Part shown: positions 19,265 through 37,517 of the stretch, piece after piece
Position numbering within the stretch: the first letter of the stretch is position 1
How the letters are laid out: every line of letters starts with the position of its first letter
Assembly (NCBI GenBank): GCA_016213945.1
Contig: JACQZF010000023.1
Location: forward strand, 1-37,517
DNA length: 37,517 nt
Origin: Nitrospirota bacterium
GTDB lineage: Bacteria; Nitrospirota; Thermodesulfovibrionia; UBA6902
Reading direction: 5' to 3'
The notes under the pieces: generated by a model
Database searches by the model: none
The model's input: only the letters and a program-made list of their open reading frames with translations
What the model was told of the DNA's origin: nothing
Translations under genes and position numbers: made by a program

Positions 19265-19292
19265 TTGACAATGTATTTGGATATGATATTAT
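19265..19292 (+). promoter_or_regulatory. Sigma-70-like promoter for the UGA peptide locus
   Basis: Consensus TTGACA at 19265-19270, a 16-base gap and TATTAT at 19287-19292 place the transcript start near 19299. That is upstream of the RBS AGGAAGGAGGTG at 19310-19321 and the peptide ATG at 19331. Confidence 0.65.
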
Positions 19293-19330
19293 TCATTATG
19301 AATCCTTATCAGGAAGGAGGTGAAGACGGG

Positions 19331-19456
19331 ATGAAGAAACCTTTGAGCAAAAAAGCGCTTTTAAAAGAGGCTGACTTCTGGGACAACCTTAAGAAAGTAG
19401 CAAAAGAAAATCCTGGCAGGTTATGCCACAAGTGAAAGGGCTGAAAAAGCTGATAG
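19331..19456 (+). CDS. Small RiPP-type precursor peptide with three in-frame UGA codons (candidate selenopeptide)
   Basis: An excellent RBS precedes ATG 19331. The leader is charged (KKPLSKKALLKEADFWDNLK...) and runs 34 codons to CHK. The frame then reads UGA-K-G-UGA-K-S-UGA followed by TAG at 19454-19456. The pattern is Cys-x-x-U-x-x-U-x-x-U, an exact nine-base period (UGA at 19433, 19442 and 19451). A hairpin at 19455-19473 has the GGUC apex of the E. coli fdhF SECIS, with the apex 18 bases after the second UGA. A radical SAM/SPASM gene follows. Read conventionally it is a 34-residue peptide ending at 19435. The last UGA may be the true stop, since it is too close to the hairpin. An in-frame ATG at 19298 lies before the RBS and is less likely. 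Described 'selenobiotic' peptides modified by radical SAM enzymes are the nearest known idea; exact family not verified. Confidence 0.75.
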
Positions 19457-19473
19457 TTGCTGGTCCAGCAACT
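19455..19473 (+). promoter_or_regulatory. SECIS-like hairpin downstream of the UGA codons
   Basis: AGTTGCTG (19455-19462), loop GTC and CAGCAACT (19466-19473) form a perfect 8-bp stem. The apex GCTGGTCCAGC resembles the fdhF element apex, where SelB recognises GGUC. Distances from the ends of the three UGAs to loop base G19463 are 27, 18 and 9 bases, so the first two fall in the known bacterial range. No U-run follows, so it is not a typical terminator. Confidence 0.65.
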
Positions 19474-19485
19474 GAAAAAGCAGAT

Positions 19486-19575
19486 ATGGCAGGTACGCTC
19501 GGAGGATTTCTTCGGAAGAGACGTCTGCCATATTTGCTCAAAAATCTCTTCCTGAACAAGACCTATGTCAATTAA
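19486..19575 (+). CDS. Short ORF of 29 residues overlapping the maturase start
   Basis: ATG 19486 opens a frame rich in basic and Leu/Phe residues (FLRKRRLPYLLKNLFLNK...), ending at TAA 19573-19575, ten bases inside the maturase gene in another frame. Many radical SAM proteins have an N-terminal 'LRKLPYLL..LFLN' segment just before the Fe-S motif, so it may be an N-terminal extension lost by a one-base change at about 19573, or a separate coupled peptide. No good RBS is visible. Confidence 0.3.
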   Translation: MAGTLGGFLRKRRLPYLLKNLFLNKTYVN

Positions 19576-20608
19576 CCACGCCTTTGATTTTTTCATACAA
19601 TGGCATCTTACCGAAAAATGTAATCTCCGCTGCAAGCACTGCTATCAGACGGACAGGAACATGGACGAGATGTCATTCTCCGAGATATGCAGCACAATCG
19701 ATGAGGTGTCTGATACCTTAAATGAATGGGAAAAAAACTATGGGGTAGATTTCTCTCCGAGTTTCAACATAACCGGCGGAGAGCCTTTTCTGCGCAAAGA
19801 TTTATTTGAAATCCTCTCAAGACTCAGCTCTCAGGGATTTGGTTTATACCTGCTTACAAACGGGATTCTTATTGATGCCAAAAAGGCAAAAAAATTATTT
19901 GACCTCGGAGTAAAGGGAGTGCAGGTCAGCGTCGAAGGGACTGAAGAGATACATGAATCGATAAGAGGCAAAGGTAGTTATTCCGCTTCCATGAAAGGCG
20001 TCAGGCATCTCCTTGATGCAGGGCTGAAAGTGACACTAAATGCCACACTGTCTTCTTTTAATGCTGACAGCTTTATGGATATGATCGAACTGTCGTCAAA
20101 CCTCGGCGTGCACAAGCTCGGTTTCTCAAGACTCGTTCCCTCAGGCAGGGGAGAATTAATGTTAAAAGAAATGCTGGCGACCGGCACAGTGAAGGCCCTC
20201 TATGAAAAAATATTTTCAACTGACACGGGCCCGCTTGAAATAGTGACAGGCGACCCGGTAGCTTCACAGTTGAGAGACCAATCTGATAACAGCGACCTTG
20301 GGGACATCCCCACTGGAGGCTGCGCCGCTGGAATATCGGGGCTTACCATTCTCCCTGACGGCACACTTGTCCCGTGCAGGAGGCTGCACGTTCCCATAGG
20401 CAATATAAGAAAAGATTCGTTGAGGGAGGTATGGGCTACCTCGGATGTCTTAAACGCCCTGCGTGACAGAAATAGTTATAAAGGGAAATGCGGCACATGC
20501 AAGAGATGGGCTGAGTGCCGGGGATGCAGGGCCATCGCGTACGCCTATCCAACGGCAAATGGAGAACACGATATCCTTGCGGATGACCCGCAATGCTGTA
20601 TTGAGTAA
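19565..20608 (+). CDS. Radical SAM/SPASM peptide maturase
   Basis: A 347-residue enzyme. C19-x3-C23-x2-C26 in EKCNLRCKHCYQ binds the [4Fe-4S] cluster that cleaves S-adenosylmethionine, and 'NITGGEPFLRKDLFEIL' gives the SAM-contacting GGEP. The C terminus has a SPASM-type cysteine cluster: GGCAAGISGLTILPDG, then 'VPCRRL', CGTCKRWAECRGC and a final 'DDPQCC'. Such enzymes install crosslinks or other changes on ribosomal peptides. It lies 109 bases after the UGA peptide and in the same direction, so the peptide is the natural substrate. Alternatives are a PqqE/AlbA-like enzyme for another substrate or a heme-related radical SAM. The start is ATG 19565; a weak purine tract precedes it. Confidence 0.9.
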   Translation: MSINHAFDFFIQWHLTEKCNLRCKHCYQTDRNMDEMSFSEICSTIDEVSDTLNEWEKNYGVDFSPSFNITGGEPFLRKDLFEILSRLSSQGFGLYLLTNGILIDAKKAKKLFDLGVKGVQVSVEGTEEIHESIRGKGSYSASMKGVRHLLDAGLKVTLNATLSSFNADSFMDMIELSSNLGVHKLGFSRLVPSGRGELMLKEMLATGTVKALYEKIFSTDTGPLEIVTGDPVASQLRDQSDNSDLGDIPTGGCAAGISGLTILPDGTLVPCRRLHVPIGNIRKDSLREVWATSDVLNALRDRNSYKGKCGTCKRWAECRGCRAIAYAYPTANGEHDILADDPQCCIE

Positions 20609-20784: not shown

Positions 20785-21312
20785 ATGTCTAAATGGAAGA
20801 TCGATCCGGACCACTCGGTAGCTGCATTTAAAGTGCGTCATATGATGGGCGCTTATGTCCACGGCCAGTGCAATAAACTTTCGGGCGAGGTCAATTTCGA
20901 CCCGGCTGATATAAGCAAAACATCTGTTGCGCTGGAGATTGACGTTGCCGGCATTTACACTGGAATTCAGAAACGCGATGACCATCTCAGGAGTGAGGAG
21001 TTCTTTGACGTTAACAAATATCCCAAGATGACCTTCAAAAGTTCTAAGGCCGAAAGGACAGGTTTTAACGCCTGCAAGGTAACAGGAGATTTGAGTATCC
21101 ACGGAATTACACGTCCGGTAACAATAGAGGTTGATTTTTTCGGCCCTGTGAAAAGCCCGTTCGGAGACACAACCATGGGCCTTACCGGAAAGGTCACGAT
21201 CAACCGTGAAGACTTCGGTTTAACATGGAATGTGCCGATGGACAATGGCGGCCTGATCGCCGGCAAAGAAGTTAAGATCTCAATGAATATAGAGACGGAC
21301 CTGGTTTCGTAA
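20785..21312 (+). CDS. YceI family protein
   Basis: A 175-residue lipocalin-like protein. The start 'MSKWKIDPDHSVAAFKVRHMM' and the motifs 'HGITRPVTIEVDFFG' and 'TGKVTINREDFGLTWN' are diagnostic of YceI, which binds polyprenoid-type lipids in characterised members. There is no signal peptide from this start, so it is probably cytoplasmic, unlike E. coli YceI. I chose ATG 20785 because AAGGAGG precedes it at proper distance. It converges with the cupredoxin gene 23 bases away. Confidence 0.93.
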   Translation: MSKWKIDPDHSVAAFKVRHMMGAYVHGQCNKLSGEVNFDPADISKTSVALEIDVAGIYTGIQKRDDHLRSEEFFDVNKYPKMTFKSSKAERTGFNACKVTGDLSIHGITRPVTIEVDFFGPVKSPFGDTTMGLTGKVTINREDFGLTWNVPMDNGGLIAGKEVKISMNIETDLVS

Positions 21313-22695: not shown

Positions 22696-23055
22696 TTATC
22701 GCCTGTTGTACTTCACCGCGTTGTCCTTGGAAAGGTCGATGGGGTATTTCTTTTCATTGAGGGCGATCTTGGCGAGGACTTCTTTTTCGATGTCGATATT
22801 CAATTTATCGGCGAGGCGGACGAGGTAAATAAAGACATCCGCAATTTCCTCTTTCACCTGCGTGATTTCCTTTTCCGAATTGACAATATTCTTTGACTGC
22901 TCTTCTGTCAGCCACTGAAAGATCTCAAGCAGTTCAGCAGCCTCTGCGGCAAGCGCCATCGAGAGGTTCTTCGGGCTGTGGAACTGGTCCCAGTTTCGGT
23001 CTTCGGCGAACTTGCGGAGTTTTTGCTGGATGTCAGAGAAGTTCATTTTTTTCAT
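22696..23055 (-). CDS. MazG-like nucleotide pyrophosphohydrolase
   Basis: A 119-residue all-alpha NTP pyrophosphatase. 'LAAEAAELLEIFQWLTEE' holds the ExxE metal motif and 'VKEEIADVFIYLVRLADKLNID' holds the ExxD motif, as in the dCTPase/RS21-C6 branch that removes non-canonical or excess dNTPs. It overlaps the 3' end of the truncated Bro-N gene by 23 bases; a second ATG at 23046 would shorten it by three residues. Phage-response or housecleaning roles are both possible; the setting favours the island. Confidence 0.9.
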   Translation of the reverse strand: MKKMNFSDIQQKLRKFAEDRNWDQFHSPKNLSMALAAEAAELLEIFQWLTEEQSKNIVNSEKEITQVKEEIADVFIYLVRLADKLNIDIEKEVLAKIALNEKKYPIDLSKDNAVKYNRR

Positions 23056-23281
23056 TTGATTTTATTGCCTCCAGTATTGGCGCAATCAACCCGTGACAAA
23101 ATATCACGACTTCACTTCCTTCTTCTTTGAGTCCTTGTTTCAACTTCCTCCAATATGTTCCCGCATCAGCTCTTTCTGTCAGCGCCCCACATACATCAAC
23201 AACGGAAAAATACCATTCGTCATTGTGCCAGGTCCGCCTGATTTTCCTGCTTCCGAAAACTACGATGTTATTTTGTTCCAT
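23033..23281 (-). pseudogene. Bro-N domain gene with internal deletion
   Basis: An 82-residue product. Residues 1-50 ('VVFGSRKIRRTWHNDEWYFS', 'VVDV') closely match the complete Bro-N protein at 27176-28000. After about residue 62 the central region is missing, and the end ('EAIKSNEK') recalls the nucleotide sequence at the 3' end of the complete gene (AATAAAATCAAATGA). It therefore looks like a derivative with about 190 codons removed, not a random truncation. The same leader (ATAGGGGAAGAAATAATG) precedes both copies. Confidence 0.7.
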
Positions 23282-24089: not shown

Positions 24090-24197
24090 TTACCCCTTCC
24101 CCTCAACAATCGCAATCTCTTCCGGCGTGAGGCCGTAGAGGGCATAGACCATTTCGTCGATCTGTTTTTCGAGGGCGGTGGGGTCTTTCTTTTTCAT
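24090..24197 (-). CDS. Methyltransferase-tail repeat, copy 2: 35-residue micro-ORF
   Basis: ATG 24197 overlaps the stop of the preceding nuclease-like gene by four bases (ATGA). The frame reads MKKKDPTALEKQIDEM..., through VYALYGL to VEGKG and TAA. All of it after residue 6 equals the C terminus of the 1125-residue methyltransferase. It could be a translated micro-protein or simply a scar that kept its frame. A DUF2281-type antitoxin gene follows with its own RBS. Confidence 0.6.
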   Translation of the reverse strand: MKKKDPTALEKQIDEMVYALYGLTPEEIAIVEGKG

Positions 24198-25651
24198 GCC
24201 TTTGATCCTGATGGCTTGTTATCCTTGCGTGCATCCACAAGGATAATATACGGGTCATTGGTCATATTCAAGGCTTTCATGGTTCGCTGCACTTTGTCGA
24301 ACTCCTGTTTTGAAAAATAAAAGATAACCTTGTATCCCTTGTCGGCATCGCTTGCCTTCTTGTAAATCTCAAGCTGCCTTTGTAAATTTCTACTGAGCTG
24401 AGAATTGCCGGCAAGTTTAAACTCAACAAGGGTCTTATCTTTACTGCCGCGTGAGGCTTTGAAATCAACGGGACCTCGGCCATCATTTACTTCGCGGCTA
24501 ACATCAGACGGAGTGGCAAACCACGTCAACCTGAAAAGAATATGAATATCATCTTCTTTTGCAACAGGTTTACCTTTATGGTAGAAAATCTTATACCCGC
24601 CCTTGTTCTCGATTACATCTTTCAGAAACTCTATTCGCTTCAAGGACTCCTCTGCAGTATTGCCAGTGACGGAATAAAATGCCGACTTCTGTGATAGAAG
24701 GTTTACCAATGAGCCAAATTGATCGACATAGACCATTCTTGAATCAATCACATCCAAAGAGCTTTTCTTTGCGGCCTCGTCGCCGTGTTCCTCTTTGTAT
24801 TTGATAAAATAATCAATTACTTCTGGAAACTTCAGGGCAGTCGCAGCGGCTGCTTTATGTTCATCTTTCGTTGTTGGCTTTTTCGGTAAAACAGAGCGGA
24901 AATAATTATTTATCTGCGCGCGCAATTGATCATTCTCTATCGCTTGTGGAATTCTGTCAAACTGTCTGAAGAAGTCCGGCTTATTAATCCATGTCTCATC
25001 CTTGGTGAGGATCTCTTTCGGACTGAGCAAAACATACTTATCCTTAAAGACTGGAAGGTCAAAAACATCGGACTGCCATGATTCCGTTTCATAATTGAAG
25101 CTGACACGCTCAACAGCCATTTCCCTTCTCAAAGATTTATCGATGTACTTCGTTGCAAAGGTCTCGGTATATTTCAGAAGGAACTCTTTGATAAGGTTAG
25201 TAGTGAAATCGCTTATCGTATCTTTACCTACGCCCTCTTTAATGAGGCACAGCTTTTCAAGATGACTACCTTTAGTCACCTTCTCTGATCCGAAGTCTGT
25301 GAACAGATTCCGGAGATTATCATTAAGTGCCCGAGCGAATTCTTTTCCAAGACCACGGCCTGTATTGCCCGAAGCACAGAACCCGAGCCAATTCTCCTTG
25401 ACCTCTGAAAAGTGATACCAGGACTTTAAGAGCCCTGTGCTAACAGGCCCGGCAGTGGATTTATCCTTCAGAAACCGCAAGTAATTGATTATGTCATCAT
25501 GGAGTTGCCGGTATTCTTTCTTTTTGCTGTTAAAGAGAAGAAAGGGGTCTATAAAAAGCGGCAGGTCAGTGACAAGGGAGATATTAAATGCCCCGTATTT
25601 ATCGAGGACTTCGGTGGATACCTCAAAGATGTTGGAGAAATATAAGTGCAT
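24194..25651 (-). CDS. Uncharacterised protein with C-terminal PD-(D/E)XK nuclease-like motif
   Basis: A 485-residue protein. The N-terminal part ('YGAFNISLVTDLPLFIDPFLLFNSKKKEY') belongs to no family I can name but recalls uncharacterised proteins paired with ATPases. Near the C terminus E387, D396 (GRGPVDFKASRG) and E410-x-K412 (TLVEFKLAGN), followed by 'QLEIYKKA', form a good PD-(D/E)XK nuclease signature. It starts 10 bases after the AAA ATPase stop, so the two form one unit. I infer an ATPase-gated nuclease, possibly anti-phage; no known system name fits with certainty. Confidence 0.7.
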   Translation of the reverse strand: MHLYFSNIFEVSTEVLDKYGAFNISLVTDLPLFIDPFLLFNSKKKEYRQLHDDIINYLRFLKDKSTAGPVSTGLLKSWYHFSEVKENWLGFCASGNTGRGLGKEFARALNDNLRNLFTDFGSEKVTKGSHLEKLCLIKEGVGKDTISDFTTNLIKEFLLKYTETFATKYIDKSLRREMAVERVSFNYETESWQSDVFDLPVFKDKYVLLSPKEILTKDETWINKPDFFRQFDRIPQAIENDQLRAQINNYFRSVLPKKPTTKDEHKAAAATALKFPEVIDYFIKYKEEHGDEAAKKSSLDVIDSRMVYVDQFGSLVNLLSQKSAFYSVTGNTAEESLKRIEFLKDVIENKGGYKIFYHKGKPVAKEDDIHILFRLTWFATPSDVSREVNDGRGPVDFKASRGSKDKTLVEFKLAGNSQLSRNLQRQLEIYKKASDADKGYKVIFYFSKQEFDKVQRTMKALNMTNDPYIILVDARKDNKPSGSKA

Positions 25652-27175: not shown

Positions 27176-28000
27176 TCATTTGATTTTATTTTTTATTGGT
27201 AGATAGTTCTGTTTGCTTACAATGCTTCTGCACAACTCCTTTTCCGTTTCTTTCCGTGCTATGCCTGCCACACTTCCTCCGCGCCTGGCCACCTTTTTAC
27301 TTTTCTTGAAGGTGTCAGGTTTTTCCTTGTATGATATTTCAGTAGTAACTTTTTCGCCAAGCATTGTAAAAATCAATTCCAAATCGGTCATGTGATCACG
27401 AAGGTTTTCATTTTGCTTGATCAACCCTTTTAATTCTTTATATTCAGAAGGCGTTATGCCAAAAGTCGCCTTTGATATTTCGGCAGTTAGAATGGCATAA
27501 TCCGATTCAGTCTCAATCCCTCTCTCCTTCCATTCATCAGTCAGATTTTGGCGGATAGCTATGCCCCGCAACCTCTTGTCTATCCAATCTTTGGGATATC
27601 CTTTTTGTTCATACAATTGCTTCATGCGCTCCTGGGCCAGCTCGGGATTTTCAATTTCCTGGACTCTTTCATAGCCGACCTTTGATAGCCATCTTTTGAA
27701 GGGTTCTGCTTTGGGAGAAGGGATAGACTGGATAATACGGAAAATGCCTTCGGTGTTAGAACAATCAGTCTCTCGCATTTTTCCGTCTGGAGCTTGCAAT
27801 TTGAACTGTCGACAAATTGTCGACAGTTCAAATCCAGCTTCTTCCTTTACTCGTATTTTCATTTTAAACCAATAGTCTCGTGCATTTACGCTATCCGTCA
27901 GCACTGCTACAACATCAACAACGGAAAAATACCATTCGTCATTGTGCCAGATCCGCCTGATTTTTTTGCTCCCGAAAACTACGATTTTATTTTGTTCCAT
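27176..28000 (-). CDS. Bro-N domain protein, phage antirepressor-like
   Basis: A 274-residue protein. The N-terminal Bro-N domain (about 1-105: 'VVFGSKKIRRIWHNDEWYFS' to 'RWLSKVGYERVQEIENPELA') is a DNA-binding module common in phage and baculovirus antirepressors. The C-terminal part contains 'ISKATFGITPSEYKELKGL', seen in the Bro-N proteins of restriction and toxin loci. A paralogue with the same layout lies at 33892-34719 and a deleted copy at 23033-23281. RBS GGGGAAG precedes the ATG. Its role in the island may be regulatory; unproven. Confidence 0.88.
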   Translation of the reverse strand: MEQNKIVVFGSKKIRRIWHNDEWYFSVVDVVAVLTDSVNARDYWFKMKIRVKEEAGFELSTICRQFKLQAPDGKMRETDCSNTEGIFRIIQSIPSPKAEPFKRWLSKVGYERVQEIENPELAQERMKQLYEQKGYPKDWIDKRLRGIAIRQNLTDEWKERGIETESDYAILTAEISKATFGITPSEYKELKGLIKQNENLRDHMTDLELIFTMLGEKVTTEISYKEKPDTFKKSKKVARRGGSVAGIARKETEKELCRSIVSKQNYLPIKNKIK

Positions 28001-30511: not shown

Positions 30512-33500
30512 TCACTTCTTCCCCTCCACAATCGCAATCTCTTCCGGCATGAGGCCGTAGAGGGCATAGACCATTTCGTCGATCTGTTTTTCGAGGGCGG
30601 AGGTGTCGGCATTCTTTACTTCCCCTCTATCAAGAGGGGATTGAGGGGTGTGTTTCTTTTTGGCGGCGAGGATTTGGTCAACGAGTATTTCAAAAGGGCG
30701 CTGGGCGGCTAAATCGATTTTGGGAATAGGTAGATTTTCAAGAAACACTTTTTTATACCGGAAGGTGTTTCCTCTCAAGTCACCGCCTGCATAGAATGTT
30801 CGAAAGGCATAGGTAAGGAGTTTTGAATTGAGAAGGGCTGTTAGATATTTCAAACGCTCCCCTGTTATAAGGAATGAAGTTGCTTCGGGATAATAACCTT
30901 TCGTATCGTAGTAGAACGCTGAGTCATAAACGATTTCAGCATAAACAATCTTTTCCTTCTCAAACTCGGCATGATATGCAATTGTATCCTGCACTTCGAA
31001 CCATTTATTGCTCGTTTTCTTCCGGCAGCCTGGCTTGCCGGTTTGCTCCAATTGTTTCCCGAATGATTTCAGATAGTCTCGAATGGCAGGATAACTGTCA
31101 ATTTTGATTTGCAGAGCTGGAAACGTAGCGATCATCCACAACTCTGCAAAATCAGCCCGATATTTCTTGATGTCCCGCCCGCGTAAAATCGGCTTGATGA
31201 TCTCGGCACTATTCGGATCTACGGCAATTAACTCGTCCTTCTTCTTGCCATTAATGATGAAGGCCTCATTCATTCCGGTCTTAATACCATAATTGATAGC
31301 AATGTCCCAATCTTTCAGTGGCACACCAACTACCTCGATCTTTTTCCTGATCCTGAACTGATCGTCTTTGGCTATAACAAAAGAATCAAGGCTGAATAAC
31401 GGCGAGCAGGTCCCTTCCCTTACAAGAAGCTCTTCGAGTGAAACATCGGCATCATATGCTTTGCTCAAATCCCAGGCATGTATCTCCTTGCTTATATCGT
31501 CCTTGCGCCATACCAGAATATTCGTATAGGTGGTGGCGTTTTCAAATAGCTGGGAATCACCAAAGTCAATCAATTGGTCAATCCGGCCATGCCCCATGAA
31601 AAACTTTCGCATGGCCTTTCCGTAATTCGCCCGCATCCACTTATTAGAAGTGATAAAAGTCAGAACGCCTTTGGGCGAGAGCAGGCTGAAACCCTGTTCA
31701 TAGAACATGCAATACACATCGCCTGTTTTAACGTATGTCGCATAATTTTGCCGTTTCCATGCATCCTGTTCCGGCCTGCCGCTGAAACTTTGTATCTGGA
31801 TATACGGCGGATTAGCAATCACAACATCAAACCCCTTCTTCTCATGAAACACCTCTGAGAAATAAACCTCAAAATCAAATTCTGTATGTCCGTTGGTGAT
31901 CTTGCTGATTAAATCATCAATCTGATTTTTATACTCCTGCTTTTTCTTCGGGCTGGTTTCATTAAAAAGGAGTGGCTTAATTCGTTCCAGCTCCTTAAAC
32001 TCCGGTTCATTAAAAAGATTCTTCTCTACTCCCAACAGCGAATTGCCGCACACAATTTTATAATCCAGATTCGGCAACGGTTTTATCTGTTTGATGTCTT
32101 CTTCATCTACCATCAGCGACAGCCAAAGACGCAGCTTGGCAATCTCCACCGCTCCGGGATCGATGTCCACGCCGTAGAGGGATTTTTCGATGCACTCGCG
32201 CTTGAAGTTGTAGGTGGACCGGTTTTTACATACTGGATTCCCGCCTTCGCGGGAATGACACAAATATGAATTTAAAACCATGCGAGTCTTAACAATCTCA
32301 CTCATCATGCCGACAGGGAAAGCTCCTGAACCTATTGCCGGGTCGCAGACTTTGATATTGGCAAGCTTCTCGTCAATGAGCGCGGCATTCTGACGGATGC
32401 TCTCCGGCAGTTTATGATAATAAGTACCGGTCTCTCTTCCCTTGGCAATAACGGTTGCTTCATTCTCGCCCACCTGCTCGCCGTATTTGATGAGGGTTTC
32501 GAGGTCTTCTTTTGATGGAACTGGATTCCCGCTCAAAGGACTGCGGGAATGACATTCTGAAAGTAAGGGCGTAGTGCAATGCGCCCCTACCTCTGTTGCC
32601 AGATAATTGATAAGGCTTTGCCGACACATATAATGGACGATCTCGCGCGGTGTGTAGTAGGTGCCCTTTGATTTGCGGTCTTTGACTTCCAGCAGGTTCT
32701 CGAAAACTTTGCCTAACATTTCAGGATCAACAGCGACTTCTTTTTCCAGCGGCTCGTCCTCTTTGACAGTGAAATTGTAACGGTCGAAGATGTCTAAAAT
32801 ACCATTGCCCTTATCGCCTTCTTTGGTCTTAAGCGCATTGGAAAAGAGCTCATTCGGCAGAATGATATCAGTATGCACCCAGTCGTAATTGTTTATAGGA
32901 TCAAAGAGTCCCCCGTTCAAGAAAGGGATTTTGCAGTTGAAGCGGCTGTAATATCCATCATCATGGCCCCGGTCAATACGAAGGGCCTCGTAAAAAAGAG
33001 GCTCTAAAATATCGTTAAAGAAATTGTTGTATGCGCCATGCCGGCCGTCAAACAGTTCTCTTAAGAAATGTTTAGTGCCGGTCCCCCACTCAGCATCCCT
33101 TTTGACGCCGAACCATCCTTTCTTTTGCAGAAAGTAAAGGAAGACTATCTGTCCCAATAGCTTCTTTGCAAAGTCAACTGTGTTGACGTCTTTGGCTTCA
33201 AAATCCGCCTTGATATTTACATCTCCGGCAACAACTTCATCAAGCATTTCTTTTGTCCGCAGGAAAAGGTCGCGGTATTTTTCAAAAAACTCTTTGGTGA
33301 CCCGTTCAATATTGAAGGCCTCTTCAAGTCCTGCAAGCGTGGGATTGTTCTTATCATCCGCGAGAATCGGGACAAGACGGCTCTGGGCAGTATGACTGTT
33401 TTCATTCTTGCCGACGAGAAAAGACCATCTGCGTGCAGGAGTAAATTCTTCTTTGATTTTGACTTTACCGCTTTTCCCTTCTTCAAAGCGGTAGTCCATC

Positions 33501-33889
33501 TTCACCAGCGAGAACCGCCAGTCTTCTTCGTTGGGAGAAACAAACGCTGCCAAGGCGGCATCTTTCAGTACACCACCCCTGCTTCCGTTTAGATACCATG
33601 CGATAAAATTTCTCTGCATGGTACGGGCGCGCTCAAGAGAGGTCTCTTTCTTTAGATGCACTACCAGAAGGTCAATTTTATTCCCATCTCCATCCTGATA
33701 TTTTCCTATCCGGTCAAGTGTGCTGACATATGGCTTATAGGCATCAGGTATAAGGTTTCCTCTGTATACTGTTGAGGGGGTCTCTTCAATGTGGTTAAAC
33801 AGATCTTTAAGAAACAGGCCAAAGCGTCCCTTATCAAAAGGGTTTTCAAAGGTGTTTCTGACAATATCCTGTGCCTGTTGTTTGTCCAA
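30512..33889 (-). CDS. Eco57I-like adenine-specific DNA methyltransferase / restriction-modification protein
   Basis: A 1125-residue protein. SAM-binding motif I is VCDPAIGSGAF (about residue 515) and the catalytic motif IV is ANPPYIQ (about residue 680), followed by a TaqI-like target-recognition region. The N-terminal third ('RFGLFLKDLFNHIEE', 'GNKIDLLVVHLKKETSLERARTMQRNF') belongs to a conserved family found beside PLD-helicases and may carry a PD-(D/E)XK-like core. N6-adenine methylation is inferred from NPPY. TTG start, two bases after the Bro-N stop. Three palindromic repeats are inserted in frame, at about residues 433-456, 543-553 and 1078-1090. Its last ~35 codons are the source or sibling of the tail repeats downstream. 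Confidence 0.88.
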   Translation of the reverse strand: MDKQQAQDIVRNTFENPFDKGRFGLFLKDLFNHIEETPSTVYRGNLIPDAYKPYVSTLDRIGKYQDGDGNKIDLLVVHLKKETSLERARTMQRNFIAWYLNGSRGGVLKDAALAAFVSPNEEDWRFSLVKMDYRFEEGKSGKVKIKEEFTPARRWSFLVGKNENSHTAQSRLVPILADDKNNPTLAGLEEAFNIERVTKEFFEKYRDLFLRTKEMLDEVVAGDVNIKADFEAKDVNTVDFAKKLLGQIVFLYFLQKKGWFGVKRDAEWGTGTKHFLRELFDGRHGAYNNFFNDILEPLFYEALRIDRGHDDGYYSRFNCKIPFLNGGLFDPINNYDWVHTDIILPNELFSNALKTKEGDKGNGILDIFDRYNFTVKEDEPLEKEVAVDPEMLGKVFENLLEVKDRKSKGTYYTPREIVHYMCRQSLINYLATEVGAHCTTPLLSECHSRSPLSGNPVPSKEDLETLIKYGEQVGENEATVIAKGRETGTYYHKLPESIRQNAALIDEKLANIKVCDPAIGSGAFPVGMMSEIVKTRMVLNSYLCHSREGGNPVCKNRSTYNFKRECIEKSLYGVDIDPGAVEIAKLRLWLSLMVDEEDIKQIKPLPNLDYKIVCGNSLLGVEKNLFNEPEFKELERIKPLLFNETSPKKKQEYKNQIDDLISKITNGHTEFDFEVYFSEVFHEKKGFDVVIANPPYIQIQSFSGRPEQDAWKRQNYATYVKTGDVYCMFYEQGFSLLSPKGVLTFITSNKWMRANYGKAMRKFFMGHGRIDQLIDFGDSQLFENATTYTNILVWRKDDISKEIHAWDLSKAYDADVSLEELLVREGTCSPLFSLDSFVIAKDDQFRIRKKIEVVGVPLKDWDIAINYGIKTGMNEAFIINGKKKDELIAVDPNSAEIIKPILRGRDIKKYRADFAELWMIATFPALQIKIDSYPAIRDYLKSFGKQLEQTGKPGCRKKTSNKWFEVQDTIAYHAEFEKEKIVYAEIVYDSAFYYDTKGYYPEATSFLITGERLKYLTALLNSKLLTYAFRTFYAGGDLRGNTFRYKKVFLENLPIPKIDLAAQRPFEILVDQILAAKKKHTPQSPLDRGEVKNADTSALEKQIDEMVYALYGLMPEEIAIVEGKK
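30621..30640. repeat. In-frame palindrome in the methyltransferase tail
   Basis: TCCCCTCT and AGAGGGGA are exact inverted arms around four bases. On the coding strand this and its flank add a TPQSPLDRGEVK-like segment to the protein. Related inserts with altered centres sit at the same place in tail copies 1 and 5 but not in copies 2, 4 or 6. Confidence 0.75.
32231..32259. repeat. Palindromic repeat inserted in frame in the methyltransferase gene (SREGGNP type)
   Basis: TACTGGATTCCCGCCTTCGC followed by GGGAATGAC is the same family as the repeat at 17561. On the minus strand it is read as CHSREGGNPVC, between motif I and the next conserved block, without disturbing the frame. Confidence 0.85.
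32521..32590. repeat. Two adjacent palindromic repeats inserted in frame in the methyltransferase gene
   Basis: 32521-32553 is a GGATTCCCGCT...GCGGGAATGAC unit, read as CHSRSPLSGNP. 32563-32590 is a different palindrome (GTAAGGGCGTAGTGC...GCGCCCCTAC), read as VGAHCTTPLL. Together they add about 23 residues just before motif I of the methyltransferase. Confidence 0.8.
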
Positions 33890-33891
33890 AG

Positions 33892-34719
33892 TTATTTCTC
33901 TGACAATTTCTTTGTTCTTGAGGGTTGTTTAAGAAAATTGTTTTTTGTGACAACGGATCTGCCGAGTCTCTTCTCAAGCTGTTTTCTGGCATTGCCGGCA
34001 ATATCTCCTCCGGCTTTGGCATCTGATTTTAATTTGATTATGCCTTGTGAATCTTCCGTACGGTGAATCTCTGTGGTGGATTTTTCACCAAGCATGTTAA
34101 AGATCAGTTCAAAATCATCCATGTGGTCCCGCAGGTTTTCACGCTTTAAGCCTTTAAGGTTTTTATATTCAACCGGAGTTACTCCGAAAGTAGCTTTGGA
34201 TATCTCAGCAGTCAAAATCTCATAGTCTTTCTCCTCTTTTGCTCCCCGCTCTTTCCATTCGTCAGTCAGCTCTTCCCTTATGGCTATTCCGCGCATCCTC
34301 TTTTCAATCCAGTCGTCAGAGTAGCCCTTGAGTTTGTAAAGCATCCGTGTTCTTTTAGTGGCAAGTTCCGGATTTTCTATTTCCTGAACTCGTTCATAGC
34401 CGACCTTTGCTAACCATCTTTTGAAGGGTTCTGCCTTGGGAGAAGGCATAGACTGGATAATTCGGAAAATGCCCTCGGTATTGGCACAGTTAATTTTCTG
34501 TTGTCCGCCCTCAGTCTTTATCAAAAGGGGGGTGGCAATTTGCCCCCACCCTTTTGAAAGTTCCGGATCGCGTCTCCGCATATCTTTAAGGTATCCATCA
34601 GGCTGTAAAGAGTCAGTTAATGCTGCCACTACATCGACAATTACAAACCACCATTCATTGTTATAAATGGTCTTTCTTATTTTCCTGCCTTTAAACAATG
34701 CTATTTTTGTGTTTTCCAT
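33892..34719 (-). CDS. Bro-N domain protein in the restriction operon
   Basis: A 275-residue paralogue of the protein at 27176-28000, with the same Bro-N domain ('IALFKGRKIRKTIYNNEWWF' to 'RWLAKVGYERVQEIENPELA') and C-terminal block 'ISKATFGVTPVEYKNLKGL'. The ATG follows the helicase stop after two bases with RBS GAGGGGAG inside the helicase gene, and the methyltransferase starts two bases after its stop. It is therefore an integral part of the helicase-methyltransferase operon. Function unknown; DNA binding is inferred from Bro-N. Confidence 0.88.
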   Translation of the reverse strand: MENTKIALFKGRKIRKTIYNNEWWFVIVDVVAALTDSLQPDGYLKDMRRRDPELSKGWGQIATPLLIKTEGGQQKINCANTEGIFRIIQSMPSPKAEPFKRWLAKVGYERVQEIENPELATKRTRMLYKLKGYSDDWIEKRMRGIAIREELTDEWKERGAKEEKDYEILTAEISKATFGVTPVEYKNLKGLKRENLRDHMDDFELIFNMLGEKSTTEIHRTEDSQGIIKLKSDAKAGGDIAGNARKQLEKRLGRSVVTKNNFLKQPSRTKKLSEK

Positions 34720-34721
34720 AT

Positions 34722-37517
34722 TTACTCCCCTCTTAAATATAAAGATAAAATAACTTCTCGCTTTCCAAAGGACTGAGGATGGTGTTCAGCATAGTGTCCT
34801 ACAAGGAGCCGTTCAGGTATCCGCGTTTGAAGGACTGCCAGGACCTTTAACGGATTCATTATTTCTTTTTTGAGTTCGTCCAAAGCCTTGAGCGTCTCTT
34901 TGGCTGTTTGCCTGGGAATACCGCCTTCTTCAAGCTGAGTGAAGACCCTTCTTAGATAAAGCTCCTGCTCATCGGTCAACTGCTTTGTGTTTTTCATGGT
35001 CGCCTTGAGGATTCCGAGTATCCGGGCCGCGCTGTCCCTCCCGGCCCTGCCGTGCGCCTCCGGCATTCCGTCAGTGGTAGCAAAAACAAATGCTTCTTTA
35101 TTCATATCCAGAAGTTCGTAAAACCTCTCCGGCAGTTTCAGTTTTTTGTCATTTAATTTGCTCTCAAGGATTGCGGCGGCGGAGATGAAATCAAGCTCCC
35201 GCGCGTTTTTCGCATCCACTGCCATAAAAAACTTTTGCAATTTCCCACGGCGGAAATAAGTTATAAGAAATTCCTGAATTTCAGGATTTGATTTTGCCGA
35301 CCGGGCCTTTTTCGGAAGTCTCTTGATCTTTTCAAAGGTATTGGGATCTTTGTCCCTCAAGTCCTTTATCACTCTAAGATATTTAAGCTCCGAGGTATCT
35401 TCGTCGTCATCGCCGATGATTGCCTTATTGGATATCAGTCTGTTGAAGAGTTCGTGAGATTCCACAGGCTCCCCTTCTGTCAGGAGCGCCGCATCGCCGC
35501 CAAGCAGGGTAAGAAAGGCGTTTATCTTTGCCTCAGCCGCCTCTCTGAGCTTTATCTGGTCATTGGACTGCTTTGTCGGGAAAAAGTTAAAGGTATGTAT
35601 CCGGTCAAACTGCGTGTCGATCCTATTGATACGTCCGACCCTCTGCATCATGCGCGTCGGGTTCCATGGAATGTCATAATTAATTACCACATTGGACCGA
35701 TGAAGGTTTACGCCTTCCGAGAGGACTTCGGTTGAAATTAGAATGCGGTAATCGTCTTTTGGATGCCGGGCCTTGGCGTCAAAGTTTTCAATTACCCTGT
35801 CGCGGACTGCCTCACCCGACCCGCCCGAAAAACAAAGCGTGCTGCCGGGAAACTTCTCATCTATATTCCTGGTAAGATATTCGGCGGTTTCCCTGGATTC
35901 GGTAAAAATAATCAGTTTGTTTTCTTTCAGGGTTTGTTTTTTTGAGAGTGCATCCAGAAATGTAAGCATCTTCGGGTCCCGGTCGACTTTCTGCCATAAC
36001 GTCTTCACCTGTTTTAGAATTGCATAATCGCTTTGCAGGTCTTTGATAAAACCATCCGTAAATTCCCTGCTGTCATATTTGTCGGCTTTCTTCTCATCAA
36101 TTAATCTCTGTATCGCCTGATCATCGTCATTTTCCAATAACTCAAAAATCTTGTTAGTATGTTTTTTGCTCACATACACATCCCCTTTTTCAAATTCCCT
36201 GATAAACATCTCATAAGAATGAATGAAACGGTCAATTGAATTTTTGAAGGCGAAGAAGCTGCTCTCCAGTCTTTTTACCAGAAGGATCTTCATGAATTTG
36301 CCCATGTTCCTCTGAGATTGCTTTTCAAGTTGATCTATGCCGCCTTTGTAATAAAGCAAAGGGGTGTAACGGGCATATTTGAATTTCAGGGAGATGAGAC
36401 GTATGGTTTCGTTAAAGATTTCATCTTCATCAGCATTGAGCCCGTAAAACAGAGGCTCCGGGTTTTCAACTTCAGGGAATTTAAGATTCTGCCGCTTCAG
36501 ATCATCAGCGAAATACCTTGCTATCTCTGTCCTCGTGCGACGGACCATCAGGTATTTGAGCACCTTGTCCCGGATTTCACGGGCATTTTCCTTTACAACC
36601 CTGATGTATTCGGGATAATCCCGCTGGCGGTCAAGGTTCTTTAACTTTTTATCCAGCCTGCTGAAAAATGCCTCAAGGTCAGGCAGATTGGGGATCGTGC
36701 TCTTTTTGGATTTCTGAAAGAGCTTGATCTGGCTCAGGATGTCTTTAGGAGAGTTGTTGTACGGGGTTGCGGTAACGAGTATTACCCGTTTGCCTCTGCA
36801 TATCTCAGCAAGCATTTCATAGGTGATATTTGTTTCCGTCCTGAAGCGGTGCGCCTCATCAATGATAATGTTGGAGTATTTCTCTGTTCCCTTGTCCAGT
36901 ATGTCCTGAAGCTTGCCTATGGATTCAAAGTCAGCCGGTATCCTGAAATCGGAAAACGCATTGGGCCATGAACCGGGGTTTTCCCTGTCAAGCAGGACCG
37001 GAGGTGCGATAACAAGAGTCCTGCCGTCTATCTGTCCGGCAAGAAGCGAGGCAATATATGTCTTGCCAAGTCCTACCACATCGGAGATGAATACGCCTCC
37101 ATATTCCTCTAAAATCTTTTTGGCGTTAAGTATCGCCTGCTCCTGATACTCCAGTCGTTTGAAATCCTGCGGGAGATATTTTGCAAAGACTTCGTCAGAG
37201 CTGCCAAGCTCATCTTTGAAATATTCATAGAGACATTTCAGGTAAAGCTGATAAGGGGTTATATTCTGATTGAGCCATGTTTTGCCTTCAATGGTGTCAA
37301 TATATTTCTCGCTGACATTAACGGCATCTTTCCAAAGCCGCTCAAATTTGTCTTTTGCAAATTCATAGTCGGAGCGGTTCTTTAGCTCCACATTCAATTC
37401 AAGATTGTCTACTAAACCGGCCTCTGTAAAATTACTTGAGCCTGTTATGACCCTGCCGGTGTCCCTGTCGCCGTCAGCAAAGGTCATAATGTAAAGTTTG
37501 GCATGAATATTTTGTGA
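34722..37517 (-). CDS. SNF2/DEAD-type helicase with N-terminal phospholipase D-like domain (5' end outside window)
   Basis: At least 931 residues; the gene runs off the right edge. The visible N terminus contains HAKLYIMTFADGDRD followed by GRVITGSSNFTEAG, the HxK and GSxN halves of a PLD catalytic motif. Helicase motifs follow: I in 'DVVGLGKTYIASLLAG', II IIIDEAHRF, III VTATPYNN, then a C-lobe with 'IFTESRETAEYL' and motifs V-VI in 'STEVLSEGVNLHRSNVVINYD' and MMQRVGRINRID. PLD-helicases of this kind accompany adenine methyltransferases in restriction-like defence loci, where the PLD part may be the nuclease. The long C-terminal region (about 700 onwards) is helical with no named motif. Operon head for Bro-N and methyltransferase. 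Confidence 0.9.
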   Translation of the reverse strand, partial: SQNIHAKLYIMTFADGDRDTGRVITGSSNFTEAGLVDNLELNVELKNRSDYEFAKDKFERLWKDAVNVSEKYIDTIEGKTWLNQNITPYQLYLKCLYEYFKDELGSSDEVFAKYLPQDFKRLEYQEQAILNAKKILEEYGGVFISDVVGLGKTYIASLLAGQIDGRTLVIAPPVLLDRENPGSWPNAFSDFRIPADFESIGKLQDILDKGTEKYSNIIIDEAHRFRTETNITYEMLAEICRGKRVILVTATPYNNSPKDILSQIKLFQKSKKSTIPNLPDLEAFFSRLDKKLKNLDRQRDYPEYIRVVKENAREIRDKVLKYLMVRRTRTEIARYFADDLKRQNLKFPEVENPEPLFYGLNADEDEIFNETIRLISLKFKYARYTPLLYYKGGIDQLEKQSQRNMGKFMKILLVKRLESSFFAFKNSIDRFIHSYEMFIREFEKGDVYVSKKHTNKIFELLENDDDQAIQRLIDEKKADKYDSREFTDGFIKDLQSDYAILKQVKTLWQKVDRDPKMLTFLDALSKKQTLKENKLIIFTESRETAEYLTRNIDEKFPGSTLCFSGGSGEAVRDRVIENFDAKARHPKDDYRILISTEVLSEGVNLHRSNVVINYDIPWNPTRMMQRVGRINRIDTQFDRIHTFNFFPTKQSNDQIKLREAAEAKINAFLTLLGGDAALLTEGEPVESHELFNRLISNKAIIGDDDEDTSELKYLRVIKDLRDKDPNTFEKIKRLPKKARSAKSNPEIQEFLITYFRRGKLQKFFMAVDAKNARELDFISAAAILESKLNDKKLKLPERFYELLDMNKEAFVFATTDGMPEAHGRAGRDSAARILGILKATMKNTKQLTDEQELYLRRVFTQLEEGGIPRQTAKETLKALDELKKEIMNPLKVLAVLQTRIPERLLVGHYAEHHPQSFGKREVILSLYLRGE

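Follow-up and report, generated by a model that had tools for sequence, protein, structure and literature searches.

Does a short open reading frame (ORF) interrupted by three in-frame UGA codons encode a selenocysteine (Sec)-containing peptide, which of these codons are decoded, and what becomes of the product? The question is raised by a locus in the window, i.e. the whole stretch of 37,517 nucleotides analysed, where 34 sense codons ending in RLCHK are followed by UGA-KG-UGA-KS-UGA-TAG, the three UGAs (UGA1, UGA2 and UGA3) recurring at an exact nine-nucleotide period. The explanation we favour, with a probability of roughly 0.78, is that the locus produces a 40-residue peptide with two Sec residues which would be modified by a radical SAM/SPASM enzyme and have a YceI-family protein as a partner. 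The relevant features, with codon tallies taken over 84 distinct homologous loci, are as follows.

19265–19292, + strand: sigma-70-like promoter TTGACA-16-TATTAT ahead of the peptide gene (11 of 12 positions fit the consensus; a pattern match only)
19314–19323, + strand: ribosome-binding site AAGGAGGTGA, read from the sequence
19331–19453, + strand: putative selenopeptide gene, 40 residues, MKKPLSKKALLKEADFWDNLKKVAKENPGRLCHK-U-KG-U-KS (ATG at 19331, stop UGA at 19451–19453)
19433–19435, + strand: UGA1, probably read as Sec35 (TGA in 82 loci, TGC for Cys in two)
19442–19444, + strand: UGA2, probably read as Sec38 (TGA in 83 loci, TAA in one; conserved Lys follows)
19451–19456, + strand: terminator codons UGA3 (19451–19453) and TAG (19454–19456); the terminal stop switches between TGA, TAA and TAG
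19454–19474, + strand: SECIS-like hairpin UAGUUGCUG-GUC-CAGCAACUG, called from spacing and covariation
19479–19538, + strand: second long hairpin, between the peptide and enzyme genes (predicted fold; z −4.1 for 19433–19560)
19565–20608, + strand: radical SAM/SPASM enzyme, 347 aa, predicted peptide maturase (Pfam PF04055, 82.3 bits; PF13186, 42.5 bits)
20785–21312, + strand: YceI-family protein, 175 aa, recurrent neighbour (PF04264, 163.5 bits)

The ribosome-binding site, the 34-codon leader, the nine-base UGA period after a Cys and the closing TAG, all described in the earlier note, are correct at base level, and a motif like AAGGAGGTGA also precedes most homologous peptide genes. The peptide ORF lies about 110 bp upstream of the enzyme gene. 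In close relatives the second hairpin has a T run at its end, resembling an intrinsic terminator. A further candidate peptide in the same frame downstream of the TAG (VCHICSKISS) was rejected, as it lies within the second hairpin and is unconserved in the homologous loci compared.

Genomic context points to a functional link between the peptide and the enzyme. A contig scan with the enzyme yielded 19 loci in Nitrospirae, Geobacteraceae, Desulfobulbaceae, Syntrophaceae and other deltaproteobacterial MAGs, all but one of which have a short UGA-containing ORF and a hairpin directly upstream. For the peptide itself we built a profile with U written as C; it matches the window gene at 19331–19450 with two TGAs inside the match (E = 1.4e−17). 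In the window's phylum the enzyme is present at strong scores in 60 of 396 genomes, and the peptide with internal TGA likewise in 60, namely in 59 of the enzyme-bearing genomes and in G296, where the match lies at a contig end; a further profile match, the 61st (G202), turned out to be an unrelated ORF. Among 395 genomes of the phylum to which locus L020 belongs, the peptide was found in 18; the enzyme was found in 17, each of which also has the peptide. Over the 791 genomes, therefore, peptide and enzyme co-occur in 76 (59 + 17), as is expected of a short RiPP precursor and its dedicated modifying enzyme, against two genomes with the peptide alone, both cases being contig ends, and one with the enzyme alone (G005; loci L086 and L149). 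The family counts more than 80 related loci, from two phyla at least, and this genome content establishes peptide and enzyme as a near-obligate pair.

Pairing does not require adjacency. In seven genomes of the window's phylum the two genes are both present but unlinked, and both UGAs are kept. Loss of the peptide at the lone-enzyme loci L031, L032, L038, L043, L060, L061 and L077 was accordingly rejected, the peptide being encoded elsewhere in the genome. At three of these loci (L060, L061 and L077), which come from the window's genus and likewise have the selenopeptide gene elsewhere, a conserved small Cys-rich ORF ending in CFN(K/R)DC..RKQK(S/A)C(R/K)GFEGCPGFKGK is located upstream of the enzyme on the opposite strand. 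Five weaker relatives of the enzyme (L088–L092, about 37% identity) have a different neighbour, a protein ending in GGCSGCGGGGD-like repeats, which is a putative different target of this distant enzyme relative. At L020, L022, L024–L027, L067, L072 and L079–L085 the enzyme is encoded in a different frame that runs across the UGAs and the hairpin, with ATGA, GTGA or TTGA overlaps; such an arrangement could couple translation of the enzyme to Sec decoding.

The enzyme scores above the cut-offs of both PF04055 and PF13186 and has the cysteines diagnostic of the radical SAM/SPASM family: in 20 compared sequences the CxxxCxxC motif (C19, C23 and C26) and the SPASM residues C253, C271, C309, C312, C318, C321 and C344 are invariant. 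Its AlphaFold2 model has a mean pLDDT of 84.3, and the nearest folds are those of SuiB, anSME, SkfB, PqqE and ChlB, at 16–22% identity. These enzymes, as the titles of the structure entries also indicate, are modifiers of peptides or proteins. No added N-terminal domain that might serve as an RRE was found in the enzyme, the barrel beginning at residue 6 of the model. The enzyme is probably a dedicated SPASM maturase of the selenopeptide, with the modification presumably falling within radical SAM chemistry.

The only third gene recurring over distant lineages in the clustering of neighbours encodes the YceI-family protein. It is found at 12 loci of the set by clustering and beside several more by direct search, and adjoins the peptide and/or the enzyme in both phyla, at only part of the loci; at L137 and L138 it follows the peptide gene, the enzyme gene being elsewhere. 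No recurrent exporter or protease was detected among the clustered neighbours, and the exporter, protease or RRE that commonly, if not obligatorily, accompanies RiPP precursors was not found here. Since no exporter or protease recurs, an intracellular role of the redox or metal cofactor type is more likely than that of a secreted antibiotic. To our knowledge, the YceI family is widespread and its role poorly known, and a literature search returned no paper treating YceI together with radical SAM enzymes. The YceI-family protein is probably a partner or carrier of the peptide, which, if true, offers a concrete lead on the role of the family. Farther downstream the window contains a defence-like stretch (30512–33889, 34722–37487, 27176–28000 and 24194–25651, all on the minus strand), with a restriction-modification enzyme of type IIG (1348.9 bits in PADLOC), an SNF2/HKD helicase and PDC-S13 and PDC-M36A candidates. 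Scattered amid these defence-like genes are three paralogues whose starts are alike (MEQNKIVVFGSKKIRRIWHNDEWYFSVVDV and variants; 23033–23281, 27176–28000 and 33892–34719, minus strand).

The same context could be accommodated by a peptide that is never modified: a small CxxUxxU selenoprotein, redox carrier or metal chaperone, acting as the electron or metal partner of the enzyme. With U written as C the core becomes CxxCxxC, a typical metal/redox motif, Cys does occur in place of UGA1, and the recurrence of YceI, with no exporter or protease recurring nearby, also fits. We nevertheless consider it unlikely that the peptide goes unmodified, given the near-perfect pairing with a single SPASM enzyme that is closest in fold to peptide-modifying enzymes, the leader-like N-terminus with its invariant E13 and W17, and the small size and high charge that are typical of RiPP precursors. 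Maturation of the peptide by the SPASM enzyme remains the preferred reading, and we now turn to its selenium content.

To determine which UGAs are decoded, we compared the codon tallies with the minimum number of changes on a tree of 74 enzymes. The codon at UGA1 changed twice and that at UGA2 once, whereas the terminal stop (TGA in 41, TAA in 30 and TAG in 13 of the 84 loci) changed at least 22 times. The Lys following UGA2 underwent 13 codon changes but a single residue change, which argues that translation passes UGA2, and for the Ser after UGA2 five of the six Ser codons are used (AGC, AGT, TCG, TCC and TCT). Because UGA1 and UGA2 are stable as UGA and are followed by conserved codons, translation continues past both. 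By contrast, TAA, TAG or a sense codon plus stop can stand in place of the third UGA, which is thus a terminator. The strict three-UGA rhythm is confined to the window and some relatives; the unit conserved across loci is Cys-x-x-UGA-x-x-UGA-K-S-stop. It is preceded by a basic N-terminal part of some 31 residues, in which E13 and W17 are invariant. Comparative evidence of this kind strongly supports a peptide with two Sec residues (CxxUxxUKS) rather than three, the third position being a freely changing stop, and its product presumably contains selenium.

Exchange of Cys and Sec at an aligned position is a classical mark of Sec. In L161 and L164, Cys occupies the position of UGA1, and UGA2 and the hairpin are retained. 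Conversely, in L168 (L019/L168) UGA1 is present and TAA is found at the UGA2 position, giving CLKUKS-stop; L161 and L168 come from the same genome. These cases represent intermediate steps of Sec/Cys exchange. No convincing all-Cys version of the peptide was found: L145 and L146 (AETAFWGNLQGFGKVCHSCEYCSK, E of about 1e−4) were set aside as lacking a start codon, and L147, a longer ORF, is unrelated.

What the earlier note had proposed for this stretch is borne out in part. It had argued that chance stops would not keep such a rhythm, and the pattern, conserved over 84 loci as the unit with two UGAs and K-S-stop, is indeed far beyond chance. It had looked to homologues for Cys in place of UGA, found here at UGA1, and had regarded homologous peptides without conserved codons after the first UGA as fatal to its reading; the downstream codons are conserved. 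Of the multi-Sec RiPP it envisaged, multiple Sec residues stand as two, three Sec residues do not, and the RiPP assignment is well supported by co-occurrence with the SPASM enzyme, from which it is deduced. Its alternative, that the final UGA serves as the stop, agrees with the interchange of terminal stops. The suggestion that the intervening K/G/S residues are crosslinking partners finds no support, as only the Lys after UGA2 is nearly fixed, the other core positions varying (G/S/K/A/E and S/T/G/N).

Bacterial Sec codons usually have each their own SECIS element. At the locus in the window, the GG of the SECIS-like hairpin lies 17 nt after UGA2; from UGA1 the distance is 26 nt. Across the family the hairpin has six pairs and a GGU(C/U/G) loop, with 98.5% of cells paired; double-sided changes were counted in 28 cells versus 7.5 in shuffles, compensatory changes affect four of the six pairs, and slid controls scored far lower, so that covariation of the hairpin is established on the alignment. 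The distance from UGA2 to the GG is mostly 15–19 nt, with a few cases of 22–26 and 38 nt. The selD gene of the same genome, which has its own in-frame TGA, has a hairpin with a GGC loop 17 nt from its Sec UGA, exactly the UGA2 spacing. The loci therefore have the GG/GU-loop hairpin at the distance expected of a selenoprotein gene, except that the UGA1 spacing exceeds that of selD and that L048 (G354) keeps both UGAs with no recognizable hairpin, for which decay, insertion or assembly error are candidate causes; L140 has a mismatch within the hairpin. Since no Rfam family matched at gathering score, covariation and spacing are the basis of the SECIS call. A single hairpin may serve both UGAs; the distance of 26 nt to UGA1 and the usual presence of one element per Sec codon speak against efficient double decoding by it.

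Decoding of Sec further requires the dedicated machinery. The earlier note had proposed searching the genome for selA, selB, selC and selD, treating absence of selB and selC as grounds for abandoning Sec; all four genes are present. selB (360.7 bits), selC (73.9 bits) and selA (625.8 bits) cluster on one contig (C18), and selD (328.7 bits) is on another (C91). In the window's phylum, 57 of the 59 peptide-bearing genomes tested have a selB match at E = 1e−45 or better, and the other two (G142 and G382) have tRNA-Sec, for which reason G142 is not counted as lacking selB, the gap being probably one of assembly. As selB is also common among related genomes without the peptide, its presence is consistent and necessary, but not discriminating. 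No tRNA-Sec above the cut-off was detected in the genomes of L019, L020 and L026, which are MAGs with completeness not given. Five genomes (G354, G142, G404, G406 and G408) have two tRNA-Sec candidates each above the Rfam gathering score. In L143 (G358) the peptide gene lies about 3.4 kb from selB, with an ArsS-like radical SAM/methyltransferase fusion in between, and in L138 (G326) about 5 kb from the selB gene.

Decoding of a single UGA, either with UGA1 as Sec and UGA2 as the stop (giving an end CxxUKG) or with UGA2 alone being of importance, would sit well with the usual one hairpin per UGA and with the L019/L168 case, where TAA at UGA2 leaves UGA1 single. It is hard to reconcile with UGA2 being TGA at all loci but one, with one change against at least 22 for true stops; with Lys and Ser/Thr after UGA2 being kept through synonymous changes and switches of Ser codon family; with L161 and L164, which have Cys at UGA1 and retain UGA2 and the hairpin; and with the selD-like spacing belonging to UGA2 rather than UGA1. 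We regard it as improbable. It is more improbable still that the short ORF and hairpin form a selenium-sensing leader which regulates the enzyme gene by attenuation or translational coupling and yields no functional peptide: the overlap of the deltaproteobacterial enzyme ORFs with the UGAs and hairpin, with possible GTGA/TTGA/ATGA stop-start overlaps, and the terminator-like hairpin between the genes in Nitrospirota would suit a regulatory leader, but the seven genomes with a distant peptide gene keep both UGAs, and leader and core are conserved in amino acid sequence across two phyla. Finally, chance in-frame stops in a non-coding stretch can be dismissed, for however short the ORF and unmatched by curated families, the same codon pattern recurs at 84 distinct loci together with a covarying hairpin.

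Under the two-Sec reading, the ribosome would insert Sec at both UGA1 and UGA2, which are three codons apart, by means of one downstream SelB-dependent hairpin, the putative SECIS, producing a C-terminal core Cys-x-x-Sec-x-x-Sec-Lys-Ser, with UGA3 and TAG stopping translation. The basic N-terminal part, with E13 and W17, would probably be what the radical SAM/SPASM enzyme, encoded adjacently or elsewhere, recognizes. The enzyme most likely alters the Cys/Sec core by a radical reaction, e.g. forming a C–Se or C–S bond or a ring, and the YceI-family protein would probably be the partner or carrier of the product. A more specific proposal, that a single SECIS serves two UGAs nine bases apart and that the SPASM enzyme converts the resulting Cys/Sec/Sec core into a new type of organoselenium cofactor or metal-binding peptide, acting inside the cell with YceI, is tentative, and we would give it slightly less than even odds. 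The arrangement of two such UGAs and a single hairpin makes the service of adjacent Sec codons by SelB directly testable.

How does this system relate to those already known? Radical SAM peptides containing Sec have been described, as the earlier note stated: according to PMC11002830, these are the SbtA/SbtM RiPPs, in which SbtM makes a thio(seleno)oxazole, and the selenobacteriocin TIGR04081 appears in a 2026 inventory of 119 prokaryotic selenoprotein families and subfamilies (PMC13188914). SbtA/SbtM (TIGR04081, TIGR04082) share with our locus a short Sec precursor beside a radical SAM/SPASM maturase and a SECIS after the TGA (PMC11002830, PMC13188914). However, the window enzyme scores only 137.4 bits against TIGR04082 (curated cut-off 350), 42 members of the peptide family gave no match to TIGR04081 up to E = 1, the SbtA motif is SGUG as opposed to the C-terminal CxxUxxUKS, and the recurrent partner here is YceI. 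The best NCBIfam scores of the enzyme, against the AhbD/NirJ2 heme enzymes, ACGX and GeoRSP (181, 173, 172 and 154 bits), are far below the curated cut-offs of 500, 500, 400 and 400, ACGX (TIGR04340) and GeoRSP (TIGR04303) reaching 172.3 and 153.9 bits against 400. Assignment of the enzyme to SbtM, ACGX, GeoRSP, AhbD or NirJ is thus rejected by curated cut-offs, and no curated NCBIfam family claims either the enzyme or the peptide. SuiB, SkfB, PqqE, anSME and ChlB resemble the enzyme in predicted fold and in a Cys pattern expected for two auxiliary Fe–S clusters; it differs from them in having no N-terminal RRE and a substrate that would carry Sec. FmdB-type and metal-binding UxxU selenoproteins likewise have two Sec residues three residues apart and a CxxU redox/metal motif, but in the inventory they appear under protein domain families (PMC13188914), as opposed to a 40-residue peptide with C-terminal CxxUxxU. 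A short CxxUxxU peptide is absent from the table of that inventory (PMC13188914), an absence that is not proof of no earlier description. Taken together, the locus looks like a member of an unlisted selenopeptide family, which the curated cut-offs set apart from SbtA/SbtM. Short selenoproteins of this family escape ordinary gene finders because their core lies behind stop codons, and the family would be a second case, besides SbtA/SbtM, in which selenium is coupled to the peptide chemistry of radical SAM enzymes.
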